Source of the DNA: a virus
Direction: 5' to 3' (one strand)
IMG/VR virus record: IMGVR_UViG_3300042458_000427
Location: 1 to 31,001 of that record
Length of the DNA stretch: 31,001 bases
The notes beneath the pieces were generated by a model. It was given only the letters and a program-made list of their open reading frames with translations, had not been told where the DNA came from and did not search any database. Positions 708 to 6,689 of the stretch are shown here, one piece after another (the first letter of the stretch is position 1; every line of letters begins with the position of its first letter). The translations under genes and the position numbers were made by a program.

Positions 708-2285
708 ATGGCATATGACATTCCTGGAGTCTACGTTCGTGAGACTCCCTTTACTAGCAACGTTAGCGTACGTAACGCTACAACAGCCGCCGCATTCGTA
801 GGCACAACAGAACGTGGACCTTCCACGCCTTTGTTGGTTTCTTCATGGAGCGACTACAAGTCTGCTTTCGGTGAAATCAACAGCACCTACGATCTAGGTT
901 ATGCGGTCTACCATTACTTTGCTAATGGTGGTCGTGATGCCTACGTATCACGTGTAATTGACACCACCGCAGTAGCCGCCGCTGTTACCTTTCAAGGAAC
1001 AGTAACTGGCGCTTCAGCCGCAAGCACTATCTTTACGGTAGGTGCAAACACTGTCGGTGCTTGGGGTAACAACCTCTCAGTAACCTTGTCATTTGATCAG
1101 AACACTTTGACGGACCCATCGGGTACACCAAAGATTAACTCAGCATCATTGTTTTCAATGGCTGTTAACTTGGTGCAAGGTAGTGCCACGGTTGAAGTAG
1201 AGCGTTGGCAAGACCTTTCATTTGATCCAACCTCAAGTCGTTATGTAAAGAGCGTTCTTGATCTTTATTCTTCTTATGTAAAGATTGTAGGAACTCCTGC
1301 AACAATTTCATCCAGCACCACAATTACTGTTTCAGGAATTACTGCTGGAGTTTATTCAAAGACCTTGACATTGGTTACTGGTTCAGATGCAACTGCACCA
1401 AACACAGTAAGCGCCGATATTGAATGGGCAACTGCTGTAACCAACTTGGACAACGTACCTGGTCCGCTATTGGTTAACCTTGTTGGTCAGACAGGTAGCG
1501 TTCGTATCAACCAAGCATTGGCATACGCCGCTACCCGTGGTGACGCCTTCGTAATCATTGACTGCCCAATTGATGCAGTAACCAAGAGCACAGAACAAAC
1601 TGCAATTCTTGGCTACAGCACCACTAATGGTGGTTGGGGTGCAACCTACTTCCCAGCATTGAAGATGTATGACCCAGCAAAGAGCGGCCCAACCGCTATC
1701 CGTGACACCTACCCAGGTGGAGCAGTTGCTGGAGCGTACGTACGTTCGGAGAACCTCCGTGGGGTTGCTAAAGCACCTGCTGGATACTTCTTGGATCTTC
1801 AAAACGTGTTTGGCTTGGTAGCAACTCTTACAGATGCAGATCAAGGTGAATTGTACAACGTTAACAACGTTAACTGTATCCGCACCATTGCTGGTGGTGG
1901 AACCATCATCAACGGAGCACGCACCTTGTCAAAGACTCGTCCAGACAAGTATGTGACTGTCCGTCGCACCTTGAACTTCTTGCGTGTAACACTCAAGAAC
2001 CAATCAGCATTTGCTGTGTTTGAGCCAAACGACGAACGACTCTGGGGTCGCATCAAGGTTGCTCTTTCAAGCACCTTGACTGACTTCTGGGCTAAGGGCA
2101 ACCTCAAGGGTGCAAACCCAGCGAATGCCTTCTACATCGTCTGCGATGCATCAAACAACACCCAACAATCCATTGAAGATGGCAATGTAAACATTGAAAT
2201 TGGTGTTGCATTGCAGTATCCAGCAGAATTCGTCGTAATCAACCTCACACAGTGGGCTGGCGGTTCCTCCGCTACAACCCTTTAA
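708..2285 (+). CDS. Contractile tail sheath protein
   Basis: This 525-residue protein is the sheath subunit that surrounds the tail tube and contracts to drive it through the host envelope. The N-terminus has the family signature 'YDIPGVYVRE', then 'AAFVGTTERGP' and 'GYAVYHYFANGG' (about residues 27-75). The C-terminal 150 residues carry the conserved core: a 'NVNNVNCIRT' segment, 'KYVTVRRTLNFLRVTLK', the 'FEPNDERLWGRIK' helix, and a final strand region 'GVALQYPAEFVVINLTQ'. The middle (about residues 90-260) is Thr/Ser/Val-rich and probably forms the surface domain. A clear AGGAG lies at 697-701, six bases before the ATG. The tube gene follows 19 bases downstream, as expected for co-expressed tail subunits. 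Confidence 0.96.
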   Translation: MAYDIPGVYVRETPFTSNVSVRNATTAAAFVGTTERGPSTPLLVSSWSDYKSAFGEINSTYDLGYAVYHYFANGGRDAYVSRVIDTTAVAAAVTFQGTVTGASAASTIFTVGANTVGAWGNNLSVTLSFDQNTLTDPSGTPKINSASLFSMAVNLVQGSATVEVERWQDLSFDPTSSRYVKSVLDLYSSYVKIVGTPATISSSTTITVSGITAGVYSKTLTLVTGSDATAPNTVSADIEWATAVTNLDNVPGPLLVNLVGQTGSVRINQALAYAATRGDAFVIIDCPIDAVTKSTEQTAILGYSTTNGGWGATYFPALKMYDPAKSGPTAIRDTYPGGAVAGAYVRSENLRGVAKAPAGYFLDLQNVFGLVATLTDADQGELYNVNNVNCIRTIAGGGTIINGARTLSKTRPDKYVTVRRTLNFLRVTLKNQSAFAVFEPNDERLWGRIKVALSSTLTDFWAKGNLKGANPANAFYIVCDASNNTQQSIEDGNVNIEIGVALQYPAEFVVINLTQWAGGSSATTL

Positions 2286-2304: not shown

Positions 2305-2955
2305 ATGGCAATTGCAGCAACAACTATGCGGACAGACCCGCTAAGAAACTTTAAGTTTCGTGTAAGCATCCATCCAAAAAACCAAAACGCCAGTAACCTC
2401 GCTAACCAGTTAAGTGCTATTGGTGATCTTGGTTTTGCTCAAGTGAGTGGTATCTCCGTTACTAACGAAGTTATCTCTTACCGTGAAGGCGGAATGAACA
2501 CCCACCCACACAAGATGGTTGCTCAGTCAGACTTTGCTCCTGTGTCATTTGCACGAGGAGCATTTGCTGGTCAGGACCAACTATGGGCATGGCAGAAGTT
2601 TATGCACGCATGGCTAGGCGGTGGCGTCGCAGGCGCAACTGGTTTGGCAATGGGTGACGGAGACTACCGTTGTGACATCGTGGTTCGTGTTTATGACCAC
2701 CCACACACCGCTTCAGAACTTAATGGTGGCGGAAGCCTGAACTACCAATACGATGGTGGCGTCCAGAACAAGAGCATTACCCCAGGTAACGTGAAGTTTG
2801 CATTTAAACTTTTCAACGCATGGCCTGGCGCTTACGCTTTGACCGACCTCAACGCTGGTGACAACGGTATCTTGATTCAGTCAATGACCGTACACCACGA
2901 GGGCTTCTTTATTGCTTGGAGTGACGCAGACATCGCCAATATTGAAACGATGTAG
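2305..2955 (+). CDS. Tail tube protein
   Basis: This 216-residue protein is the inner tail tube subunit of the T4 gp19-like family. It polymerises into the rigid tube inside the sheath. The family pattern is visible: 'DPLRNFKFRVSI' at the N-terminus, 'GFAQVSGISVTNEVISYREGG' (residues about 47-67), then the 'LWAWQKFMHAW' helix and a C-terminal segment 'KFAFKLFNAWPGAY' ending with 'MTVHHEGFF'. AAGGAG lies 11 bases before the ATG, a rather long spacer, but the second ATG (2326) has no better site. It directly follows the sheath gene, the standard order in contractile tails. Confidence 0.95.
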   Translation: MAIAATTMRTDPLRNFKFRVSIHPKNQNASNLANQLSAIGDLGFAQVSGISVTNEVISYREGGMNTHPHKMVAQSDFAPVSFARGAFAGQDQLWAWQKFMHAWLGGGVAGATGLAMGDGDYRCDIVVRVYDHPHTASELNGGGSLNYQYDGGVQNKSITPGNVKFAFKLFNAWPGAYALTDLNAGDNGILIQSMTVHHEGFFIAWSDADIANIETM

Positions 2956-2987: not shown

Positions 2988-3770
2988 ATGGATCTAAAGC
3001 AACAAGCGGACGCCCTTAATACTGCCCTTGACGGAGACGTCCCTGAAATCAAACCAGCACCCGATACGGTTGTTGAGTTGATTAAGGGCGTCTACAACAA
3101 GGACATGGATTCTTGGGACACCACTGCAATCGTTCGTGAACTAAATGGTTTTGATGAAGAGGCTCTCGCTTCTTTAGATAATAAGAACCTTGTATACGCA
3201 GAGTACATGTCAACCTTGCTCAAGCGTGCCGTTATTAGTATTGGGTCTGTAGATATTGCAAGCACCCCGTCAATAATTGACGAGTTGATTATTGGTGACC
3301 GTGACCTCTTGTTCTTGGGCATTGTTATTGCTACATACGGAAGCAACCGTGAGTACCAAGTGATTTGTAACGGATGCTCGGCGTCCAATGATGTCACCGT
3401 TCCTGTTGACAAGTTTGATAAAAGGAACATGGATGTAGATGTCTACAAACCAATTACGGCTACCTTAAAGAATGGTGAGACGGTGAATTTCCGTCTACCT
3501 ACTGGCGCTGATAGCCAGTACGTTTCTAAAAAAGCCAAGTCCATAGCGGAACAGAACACCATCATGTTGGCTCGTTGTGTGTCCTCAGACGATGTTAAAA
3601 ATGCAGAACACTGGGCTAAAAGCCTCGGTATTCAAGACCGCTCTAATCTTATAAACGCCCTGATGCAGAACCAGCCAGGGCCTGAGATAGGGGAGGTGAA
3701 TGCCCAATGCGCTACGTGCAACGAACCAATCGTTTTCGTGCTTGATTGGGCATCCCTTTTATTCGGTTAA
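2988..3770 (+). CDS. gp26-like baseplate hub protein / tail assembly chaperone
   Basis: This 260-residue protein lies between the tail tube and tape measure genes, the usual place of the tail assembly chaperone. The central part ('IIGDRDLLFLGIVIATYG', then 'VNFRLPTGAD') resembles the T4-type baseplate protein family that includes gp26. Two Cys pairs, C127/C130 and C241/C244, could bind a metal together. The C-terminal pair lies just before the stop. The following reading frame stays open past that stop to 3909 and reaches the tape measure start, so a longer frameshifted form is possible and is described separately. The GGAG Shine-Dalgarno site lies about seven bases before the ATG. Confidence is good for a tail assembly or baseplate role and moderate for the family name. 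Confidence 0.7.
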   Translation: MDLKQQADALNTALDGDVPEIKPAPDTVVELIKGVYNKDMDSWDTTAIVRELNGFDEEALASLDNKNLVYAEYMSTLLKRAVISIGSVDIASTPSIIDELIIGDRDLLFLGIVIATYGSNREYQVICNGCSASNDVTVPVDKFDKRNMDVDVYKPITATLKNGETVNFRLPTGADSQYVSKKAKSIAEQNTIMLARCVSSDDVKNAEHWAKSLGIQDRSNLINALMQNQPGPEIGEVNAQCATCNEPIVFVLDWASLLFG

Positions 3771-3909
3771 ACTAGTTCATATATACTGGGAATACGATTT
3801 GATTGCCACCGTCTACAAGGGCTTTACGCTCGCTGATATACAAAACATGACTGTACGCCAAAGAGAGTACTGGTCGTCTATGGGTAAATGGCGTAAGTCT
3901 GGAGACTAG
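3700..3909 (+). CDS. Small tail-assembly ORF, possibly a frameshift extension of the gp26-like protein
   Basis: This reading frame overlaps the last 71 bases of the gp26-like gene in another frame and stops two bases before the tape measure ATG. If read from its ATG at 3700 it is 69 residues, but GGAGG lies only three bases before that ATG, which is a poor spacing. The part beyond the upstream stop (about 46 residues, including 'WEYDLIATVYKGFTLAD' and 'VRQREYWSSMGKW') looks like a real coding sequence with aromatic and charged helices. Tail chaperone genes before tape measures are often made in two forms by programmed frameshifting. Here the shift needed would be +1 or -2. An independent small gene, possibly starting at TTG 3799, is the alternative. 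Confidence 0.5.
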   Translation: MPNALRATNQSFSCLIGHPFYSVKLVHIYWEYDLIATVYKGFTLADIQNMTVRQREYWSSMGKWRKSGD

Positions 3910-3911
3910 CG

Positions 3912-6689
3912 ATGGCACCACTACCACCACCTGATGGTGAAAAGAGTTTGAATGGACCCTTTGGTGGATCCACCACGTCTGGTGGAGAACTCGCTCAATT
4001 TCGTGCCAAGTTCAATGTTGACCTTAGCCAGATGTCAAAACTCATTACAGGCTTTCAAAGTCTTAAAGACAAGATAAAAGCAGTTGAGACTGCTGCTACA
4101 TCGGCTACCAGCAAGGTTAACAGCCTCTCTAACGCTCTCCAAGGCGTAACAGGTGGTTCTGCGGGGTTAAACGTTTCTGCACCGTCTAACGGCACTACAA
4201 GCACTGGTACCGCCGTCTCACAGGCTATTGCTAGTAGTAAAGCCTCTGTAGTACCTAAGACTGGTTCTAGCCCTGTTGCTCAGGCTGGAATGATGGGTGG
4301 GAGTGGTAGTGGTTTCTTTTCCAACATGCGTGGTGCCGCCTTTCCAAGTGGTACAGGTGGCGGAGCAGGCATGGCGCAAGTTGCGCAATATGGTATGCAA
4401 GCCATTGGTGCAGGTATTAACGCAATTGATAACCGTACTAACCAGATGTATGGTCGTGCCTTACGGACTGACCAATTGGCTGTTCTTTATCAACAAACCG
4501 AAGGAATAAGTCAACAAGGTTATTATGATCAATATAGGAAACCTCTTCAAGGATTCCGACTTGGTGCTGATGGTACAAACCAATTATTAAGTCTGCAAGC
4601 ACAGACAGGTATCAATGCCCAGAAACAAGCAGGAAGTATTCAAGGACTTAGCGCTGCTTTAGGTTACTCCTACAGCACTCAAGACTTTGCTTCAATGCTT
4701 ACAACATTGGCTAACCCAATGGTCAACAACAGAATGACCATGACATTAGGAACTGGTTTGTATGGTCCTGGTGGTAAACAACGCTCCATGACTGAGGTGT
4801 TCCAAGGAGTTGTTCGTGGGTCTGGCTTAACAAATGAACGTTACCTTGCTGGTGCAATGCAACAAGGTTCTTCCGCCCGTGCACGTCTGACTCAGTTGGG
4901 TCTTCCTGAGGATATGCAAAATGCAGTCCTTCAATACGCTAAAGATAATGTCACTTTTCAAAAGAAAACTGGTGGCAATCAAGGGATGTATAACCCCGAA
5001 CTTAAATCCCAGCGTGAAATCATGGGCATTGAAAAGAACTTTGCCACACAGCAACAAGAGACAACTCGTAAACAAGAAGTAAAAGACGAGAAGTTCTACA
5101 ACCGTCAAAAAGACAACCTTGCGTCAATGGAAACCAACACGCAAAAGATGATTGAGTTGACCACCCGTATTCAAGAATTGACTTCTGCAATTACTGGTGC
5201 TCGCATCTCTAGTCGTGGAAATCCAATAACCAGAATTGGTGGAAGTCTTTTAAAGAAAGGTTTAGGCGCTGGCATTATCGCCGCTTCTGGTATTGGTACC
5301 GTATTAAGCGGTGGTACTGCAACCCCATTAACACTTGGAACTGCTGCTTTTGGTGCAAGTTTGTTACTTGGAGATGGTACTGAAACAGCAAGCGGTAAGA
5401 AAAGTGCATCGGCTACTAAAGGTAAAGTTACTTCAGGAAGTTCTTCTGGATTAAACGATAAGTTTAGACAACGTCTTGAACAGATGATTGAAGCCTCTGG
5501 TGGAAAAGTAGGGATTGGCGGAGGATTTCGTTCTAGTGCTCAACAACGTAGTTTGTTCTTGTCTCGGTATAGTCGCACATCTGACAAGACTGGGACATTT
5601 TGGGATGGCGCATACTGGAAGAAGAACTCAGGTGTTGCAGACGCCGCTCCTCCAGGAATGTCAATGCACGAAATTGGACTGGCGGCTGACCTTACTGGTG
5701 ACCTTAACTGGGTGCAAGAAAACGCCGCTAAGTATGGTTTGAAGACTTTTGCCAACGTCAACAACGAACCATGGCACGTACAGCCAGCAGAACTCCCTAA
5801 CAGCCGTCGTCAATATGAAAAGGCTGGGGCACCTTGGGGAACTATTGCTGGTGCGGAACGTATGGATCCAAATGCAACTTTTGAGGGAGCGTCTAGCGAC
5901 GGTGGAGTATCCGATGCTTTGTACAACTCAACTGGTTCTGGGAATGTAAACGCATACTCACAAATGGGTATGAGTGCTCAGATGGAAGCATTCAAAGTTG
6001 GATCTAGGAAACTAGGTGGCGGCGGCGGTGGCGGTCGTATGGCTACAGGACGCCGTACTCGTAACGTTGGATCCGCCAGCACCTCAACACAACAATCTGG
6101 TTCTGTAACAACTGGCAAAGCCATGGACCCCCGTGCAATTGCACAAATGCTATTGAATCGTGGATTTAAAAAAGAAGACATTTGGAAGATGCTTGCTATC
6201 TCCCATAGAGAATCACGTTGGATACCTTCAGTACGTAACGTAGGTCCTGTTGATGACTCATATGGCTTGTTCCAAATAAATATGAAAGGCAACTTAGGGG
6301 AAGCCCGACGTAAGTATTTTGGTATTGCTGACGATAGTGAATTGTTTGATCCAAAAACTAACGTTAAAGCCGCCCGCATTACCTATGGCGGAGGAAACCT
6401 CTCACCTTGGAATGTTAAAGGTGACTGGAAGAACGGTATTGCCCCAGACAAAATGGCGCAGAGTAAACAAATTGCTCAGAGCATGAACTTACCAACCACA
6501 GGTGACCCAACAACACCGTCACGTGGTGGAGGTAATACAACGGTTGTGCAAGGCGGGGGAGTTACTATCGCCCCAAATATCTACATCCAGTCAACGGGAA
6601 GTAACACTGCGGACGCAAAGCGTGCGGCTCAAGAAGTCGCTAACTTAATTACTCAAGATCTTAAACGAACCGCTATGAGGAACCTCTAA
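3912..6689 (+). CDS. Tape measure protein with peptidase M15-like and lytic transglycosylase-like domains
   Basis: This 925-residue protein is the largest in the tail assembly part apart from the gpI fusion and sits where tape measures are found. Residues about 30-80 and 370-440 are helical or coiled-coil-like, and about 448-486 is a hydrophobic Gly/Ala-rich stretch that could enter a membrane. Residues about 516-640 match a D-Ala-D-Ala carboxypeptidase (M15/VanY) domain, with zinc ligands H586 and D593 in 'SMHEIGLAADL' and H622 in 'EPWHVQ'. After a poly-Gly linker, residues about 738-850 match a lysozyme-like transglycosylase, with probable catalytic E767 in 'SHRESRW' followed by 'SYGLFQINM'. 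Family knowledge suggests that these domains cut peptidoglycan during tail entry. The ATG follows the previous stop by two bases. Confidence 0.88.
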   Translation: MAPLPPPDGEKSLNGPFGGSTTSGGELAQFRAKFNVDLSQMSKLITGFQSLKDKIKAVETAATSATSKVNSLSNALQGVTGGSAGLNVSAPSNGTTSTGTAVSQAIASSKASVVPKTGSSPVAQAGMMGGSGSGFFSNMRGAAFPSGTGGGAGMAQVAQYGMQAIGAGINAIDNRTNQMYGRALRTDQLAVLYQQTEGISQQGYYDQYRKPLQGFRLGADGTNQLLSLQAQTGINAQKQAGSIQGLSAALGYSYSTQDFASMLTTLANPMVNNRMTMTLGTGLYGPGGKQRSMTEVFQGVVRGSGLTNERYLAGAMQQGSSARARLTQLGLPEDMQNAVLQYAKDNVTFQKKTGGNQGMYNPELKSQREIMGIEKNFATQQQETTRKQEVKDEKFYNRQKDNLASMETNTQKMIELTTRIQELTSAITGARISSRGNPITRIGGSLLKKGLGAGIIAASGIGTVLSGGTATPLTLGTAAFGASLLLGDGTETASGKKSASATKGKVTSGSSSGLNDKFRQRLEQMIEASGGKVGIGGGFRSSAQQRSLFLSRYSRTSDKTGTFWDGAYWKKNSGVADAAPPGMSMHEIGLAADLTGDLNWVQENAAKYGLKTFANVNNEPWHVQPAELPNSRRQYEKAGAPWGTIAGAERMDPNATFEGASSDGGVSDALYNSTGSGNVNAYSQMGMSAQMEAFKVGSRKLGGGGGGGRMATGRRTRNVGSASTSTQQSGSVTTGKAMDPRAIAQMLLNRGFKKEDIWKMLAISHRESRWIPSVRNVGPVDDSYGLFQINMKGNLGEARRKYFGIADDSELFDPKTNVKAARITYGGGNLSPWNVKGDWKNGIAPDKMAQSKQIAQSMNLPTTGDPTTPSRGGGNTTVVQGGGVTIAPNIYIQSTGSNTADAKRAAQEVANLITQDLKRTAMRNL

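Follow-up and report, generated by a model that had tools for sequence, protein, structure and literature searches.

A probable programmed +1 frameshift at an invariant CUU codon, with a candidate upstream RNA hairpin, in a putative tail assembly chaperone gene of freshwater phages

The window analysed here, i.e., the whole stretch of 31,001 nucleotides of the virus record IMGVR_UViG_3300042458_000427, was found to contain a contractile-tail module with genes for a sheath, a tube, a gp26-like protein, a tape measure, a LysM protein, a hub-like protein and baseplate J (Table 1). The gp26-like gene is located between the tail tube and tape measure genes, which is the gene order of frameshifted chaperones. 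Its frame-0 ORF ends at TAA 3768–3770, and a second ORF in the +1 frame overlaps its 3′ end; the start of the tape measure gene lies 3 nt past the stop codon of this second ORF. Both ORFs were present as described in an earlier reading made from the letters alone (the sequence-only reading), except that the +1 frame is not open from before position 3700: a TGA at 3697–3699 closes it, and it opens exactly at ATG 3700 (relative positions −68 to 139).

Table 1. Features of the tail module and of the proposed frameshift site in the window.
Feature	Position	Strand	Remarks
Sheath gene	708–2285		Contractile-tail module of the window
Tail tube protein gene (gp19-like)	2305–2955	+	PF06841, E 4.7e-22; phrog_4542
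gp26-like gene, putative tail assembly chaperone, short form (TAC-N), 260 aa	2988–3770	+	PF12322, phrog_150, predicted structure
AGGGGAGGTGA, Shine-Dalgarno-like stretch	3689–3699	+	Predicted to pair with 3753–3758 (TCCCTT, slip codon included)
ATG opening the +1-frame ORF	3700–3702	+	Not conserved as start; open +1-frame ATG in 2/53
+1-frame ORF, 69 aa	3700–3909	+	
5′ arm, core helix of predicted upstream hairpin	3701–3708	+	Predicted to pair with 3745–3752
3′ arm, core helix of predicted upstream hairpin	3745–3752	+	Stops one codon short of the slip codon, beside the predicted E-site codon
Proposed P-site slip codon CTT (Leu257)	3756–3758	+	CTT in 53/53 distinct sequences
Base skipped in the proposed +1 shift, first base of the A-site codon TTA (3759–3761)	3759	+	T 43, C 10 of 53
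+1-frame extension, C-terminal part of the proposed long form	3760–3909	+	49 codons (3760–3906), stop 3907–3909
Tape measure gene, 925-aa ORF	3912–6689	+	Position after tube and chaperone

The gp26-like protein matched PF12322 (T4_baseplate/gp26 family; E 1.2e-09, 38.7 bits, above the curated cut-off of 24.5). Its predicted model (pLDDT 91.4) aligned best with 2ob9, the HK97 tail assembly chaperone (Z 7.1), and with 3fgx (6.9) and 3klu/YqbN (6.1), which we take to be tail assembly chaperones as well, the next row having 3.6; according to the warning of the tool, a Z under 8 can reflect a common arrangement. A Foldseek search with the model gave no PDB matches at E ≤ 0.001, and no solved structure related by sequence to the first domain was found. 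The structural alignment agrees with the tail chaperone-like role suggested earlier, and the gene is regarded as a putative tail assembly chaperone gene. T4 gp26 is presumably also a chaperone, and the result supports the view of ‘baseplate’ gp26-like proteins as tail assembly chaperones.

A viral contig search gave 54 loci, 50 of which were examined (L036, L037, L039 and L053 were omitted, since the match was cut by the contig end). The +1 frame was open for at least 44 codons beyond the gp26 stop in all 48 loci that reached this stop (L015 and L035 did not reach it). The same was found in 50/50 further loci, consisting of 45 viral loci from the best 80 of 341 relatives in a profile search and five on bacterial contigs (34 of the 80, and L125, were contigs already counted and were not recounted), and in 4/4 Streptomyces phages. 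The earlier impression that the extension is real was thus borne out. The extension peptides could be aligned over their full length, with the motif YxGWxLxDIKxLTxRERxxW over 21 aligned relatives and two Arg residues invariant in all of them, and variable sites after the gp26 stop tracked the codons of the +1 frame (14, 10, and 22 at positions 1, 2, and 3 in 23 sequences). The −1 frame meets a stop at 3773 in the window, as had been pointed out, and was found to close within 5–35 nt in 53/53 freshwater sequences and within 5–80 nt in 20/20 distant loci; the window does not have the arrangement of a −1 shift on a slippery heptamer. Both parts in a single frame were found neither in any locus among those examined nor in the phage records searched. 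No family was found for the window's own extension sequence, and five of the 21 extension relatives gave weak matches to phrog_10636 (best 0.00095).

The shift site was compared in 53 distinct freshwater-phage sequences, i.e., 23 close ones (the window clade) and 30 intermediate ones (about 48–55% identity). The invariant CTT was followed by YTA in all 53 (TTA in 43, CTA in 10). Seven other columns with Leu in at least 52 of the 53 sequences each used six codons, and synonymous change at CTT was zero in 1378 sequence pairs, compared to 0.543 in the gene body. Codon 256, just 5′ of CTT (TCC 32, TCA 18, GCA 3), and the frame-0 stop (TAA, TAG, or TGA) vary among the relatives, so neither appears to be required for the shift. 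In YTA, the A doubles as the middle base of TAT, the +1 codon that comes next, and YTA may therefore persist through dual coding rather than slow decoding; neither UUA nor CUA is rare in the window phage (12.0 and 9.8 per 1000). In more distant relatives, including Streptomyces phages, the site near the stop was shown to read TTT and then C in 20/20, never TTC (this set excludes L047, L049, and L054, whose 3′ ends are the same as others, and Alone3). The presence of CUU_Y in the freshwater clades and UUU_C in the distant loci suggests a common form YUU_Y, in which the P-site tRNA would re-pair on UUY. Within the window clade, the 18 nt preceding the shift had a synonymous diversity of 0.033, and the stretch 10–31 nt past the stop one of 0.015, with TATACTGGGAATACGA (3782–3797) nearly without synonymous change; in the intermediate set, the corresponding values were 0.474 and 0.304. 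The strong conservation of both stretches is thus clade-specific, and only CTT and the GAG GTG codons (3693–3698; 53/53) were taken as general. The invariant CTT lies inside the stretch where the sequence-only reading had placed a +1 or −2 shift, and no conserved start was found; a programmed frameshift at 3753–3762 is very probably real.

In the proposed mechanism, most ribosomes would halt at TAA 3768 and release the 260-residue short form. In a minority, peptidyl-tRNA-Leu on CUU, with UUA (or CUA in relatives) waiting in the A site, would slip +1 onto UUU and skip U3759; reading would resume at UAU 3760 and end at the stop codon 3907, so that the long form would have 306 residues, with the predicted junction ...DWASL-YSVKLVHIYWEYDLIATVYKGF.... 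The two forms may cover the tape measure protein and bring in the tube protein as in lambda, where both gpG and gpGT bind the tape measure and the tube protein is recruited by gpGT (accessible text of PMC5009743). The explanation as a whole, i.e., a chaperone gene, a +1 shift at CUU, a long form and possibly stimulation by the hairpin described below, is considered highly probable. Its basis in the sequence is the gene order, the dual-frame conservation, the invariant slip codon, the absence of a conserved start and the folding potential; the direction and efficiency of the shift, the role of the hairpin and the chaperone function are inferred.

That the extension is instead a separate small protein, made from ATG 3700 or by coupled re-initiation, is hardly credible. 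In the window, GGGGAGGTGA adjoins this ATG upstream, a TTG in the +1 frame is present at −26 in 23/23 window-clade sequences, and the annotations of BRock, LuckySocke, and GiJojo give the extension a small hypothetical gene of its own; however, only two of the 53 sequences, the window and L028, have an open +1-frame ATG 5′ of the shift site, so ATG 3700 is not a conserved gene start. Besides, in 26/30 intermediate and 13/20 distant sequences the open +1 frame contained none of ATG, GTG, or TTG 5′ of the slip codon, and a separate start would leave the CTT in 53/53 unexplained. The TTG at −26 showed no Shine-Dalgarno-like match in the preceding 14 nt in the window clade, which makes this start route unlikely there. 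The Shine-Dalgarno site noted earlier near ATG 3700 does exist as a similar stretch, but the ATG as a start is not conserved, and the doubt already voiced about it can be settled: GGGGAGGTG is kept where the ATG leads nowhere, and is predicted to pair with the slip-site region. The same reading frame as with +1 would also be reached by a −2 shift, in which tRNA-Leu on UUA (3759–3761) would move back two bases onto UUU and give a product one residue longer. The sequence-only reading had left the two directions open; CUU_Y with +1 fits the sequences better, and −2 is judged improbable. A precedent is the Mu tail protein gpGT, called the only known natural −2 case in the accessible text of PMC3498833, but 10/53 sequences have CUA, which should need re-pairing on UUC with two weak positions, and in the distant clade a −2 shift would find no re-pairing from UUU, whereas a +1 shift from UUU to UUC would be ideal. 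These pairing arguments point to +1 rather than −2. Hardly any weight is given to a +1 shift at the UCC_C or UUA_U codon instead of CUU, or to a transcriptional slip. The longest run in the stretch is four T, which is short for transcriptional slippage. UCC_U is a +1 site in antizyme (PMC3498833, accessible text), but here the codon 5′ of CTT varies and CTT does not.

Since the Shine-Dalgarno-like stretch lies some 60 nt upstream of the shift site, it was considered too far away for a prfB-like stimulated shift, which was rejected, and was re-read as a hairpin arm. In a predicted hairpin whose 3′ end falls on the slip codon, the GGGGAGGTGA stretch makes up the 5′ side, GGGGAGGTGAATGCCCAAT is able to pair with ATTGGGCATCCCTT, and TCCCTT would pair via 3689–3694 in the window's own fold and via 3694–3699 in the clade consensus. 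Because one codon separates the predicted core helix from CTT, the helix would adjoin the E-site codon when CTT occupies the P site, as at +1 sites stimulated by a hairpin. Forty-four distinct stretches of 72 nt with CTT at their 3′ end folded better than synonymous-codon shuffles, with a mean z of −2.65, the lowest of 31 positions along the gene (other 30: +0.06 to −2.05). A second well-folding stretch was located at about codons 16–39 of the gene (mean z −2.05). With dinucleotide shuffles, the mean z was −2.11 upstream (18/44 below −2) and −0.06 downstream (1/44 below −2). For 15 of the 20 distant UUU_C loci, the stretch ending at TTT was the lowest of 21 (mean −1.47), with single z values from −4.75 to +0.7.

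A 14-pair structure had 89.3% of its cells paired, compared to 31.5–55.8% when the register was slid; as the structure was derived from the same sequences, this control is biased in its favour. Cells changed on both sides numbered 26, against 7.0 in shuffles; seven of the pairs never vary, and three are broken in 20/44, 27/44, and 14/44 sequences. There was no excess of pair types over shuffles (345 of 500), by parsimony only two branches of the tree exchange both sides of a pair directly within the helix, and the core register showed seven swap steps, the most of 40 registers, two others having six. With two swap branches, near-tied registers and no pair-type excess, the covariation support for the hairpin is thus modest. 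RNAalifold on the 44 sequences recovered the same register in part only (−4.0 kcal/mol), and weak hairpins were found in some sequences (z −0.33 in L115, −0.54 in L119, and −0.95 in L110).

The hairpin (about 3689–3758) would re-form behind the ribosome and favour forward slippage. An engineered hairpin placed 5′ of a +1 site and beside the E site was described to stimulate the +1 shift (PMC3639245, PMC6321510, accessible text); since engineered hairpins so placed act on bacterial ribosomes, that of the window may be a natural case. The engineered refolding hairpins (Cho 2013; Huang 2018) were designed, whereas the predicted stem of the window is natural, contains the slip codon as well and surrounds about 36 nt. 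In the 70S system, the hairpin on CUUUGA stimulated +1 with the A site empty (no RF2) or with a starved codon (PMC6321510, accessible text), and this speaks against the proposed mechanism, because the published effect needed a stalled A site, yet UUA and CUA are not rare here. Tentatively, the natural upstream hairpin could be the counterpart of the classical downstream pseudoknot and set the chaperone ratio across a contractile-tail phage lineage, a proposal that we place somewhat below an even chance. Just short of an even chance is given to the hairpin being present but serving a purpose other than frameshifting, or being a by-product of coding constraint: the modest covariation, the weak folds in some sequences and the other stretch of the gene at z −2.05 are consistent with this, whereas at both kinds of slip site the hairpin terminates on the slip codon, and in both sets no other stretch folds better.

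Candidate structures downstream of the site were rejected. The region 3720–3859 of the window folded no better than shuffles (z +1.28), and RNAalifold on 19 sequences gave 26 pairs with two-sided changes in none. A helix 3760–3767/3784–3793 was kept in the window clade but broken in part of the intermediate set (pair (−6,24), 21/30; pair (−1,17), 13/30). The absence of downstream structure in the window fits the reduction of +1 shifting by a downstream pseudoknot in the 70S system (PMC6321510, accessible text).

Frameshifting in tail chaperones is already known, for the most part as a −1 shift. Few +1 cases exist; such a shift has been put forward for HSTV-2 and for the HF1 group. The locus resembles lambda gpG/gpGT in having overlapping ORFs between the tube and tape measure genes, but in the window the shift would be +1 (or −2) and not −1, there is no lambda-like slippery heptamer, and the first domain is of the gp26/T4_baseplate type. 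T4-like phage chaperones share the gp26-type domain (PF12322) and would differ in the proposed mechanism: Vladimirov, Gautam, and Davidson are said, from the title of their 2022 work, to propose one other than frameshifting. For HF1-group haloviruses, a +1 frameshift of the tail chaperone was described at TTT-CGC near the stop (PMC7230728, accessible text), the HSTV-2 site being TCC TTT CGC. These are likewise contractile-tail viruses using the +1 frame, and the motif UUU_C, named for the HF1 group and for influenza PA-X (accessible text of PMC7230728 and PMC3498833), recurs in the 20/20 distant relatives of the window. In contrast, the window clade has CUU_YUA and not UUU_C (CTT followed by T or C in 53/53), the HSTV-2 protein showed no detectable sequence relation (hhalign probability 0.1), so that homology to this chaperone was rejected, and the accessible text of PMC7230728 mentions no hairpin. 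CUU is the +1 slip codon in prfB (RF2; CUU_UGA) and Ty1 (CUU_AGG_C; PMC6321510, accessible text), where it occupies the P site and slips to +1 as proposed here; unlike in these two, the A-site codon here, UUA/CUA, is neither a stop nor rare in the phage. In prfB, a duplex of an upstream Shine-Dalgarno sequence with rRNA stimulates the +1 shift (PMC6321510, accessible text), whereas the similar element of the window lies far upstream and is predicted to pair in cis with the slip region. In the open-licence literature searched, we found neither a chaperone with a CUU_YUA site nor a +1 site with a natural hairpin 5′ of it.

According to the accessible text of PMC10885494, no general motif for forward shifts is known; with its dozens of natural variants, its single invariant codon and a possible stimulator upstream, this locus could be used to study what drives a bacterial ribosome forward. 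The results also suggest a correction of annotation: in the Streptomyces phages BRock, LuckySocke, GiJojo, and pSt2308 (L056–L059), the +1 frame was found to be open from the TTT-C site in all four, while the extension stands as a separate hypothetical gene in the first three, and pSt2308 lists nothing there. A TTT-C site with a +1 extension was also found in L143 and L144, on contigs of 759 kb and 736 kb from Actinomadura atramentaria and Nonomuraea typhae, respectively, where the loci may belong to either a prophage or a phage-tail-like machine. The tape measure protein of the window was shown to contain VanY peptidase and SLT_3 lysozyme-like domains, and the BRock gene at the tape measure position is annotated as an endolysin.
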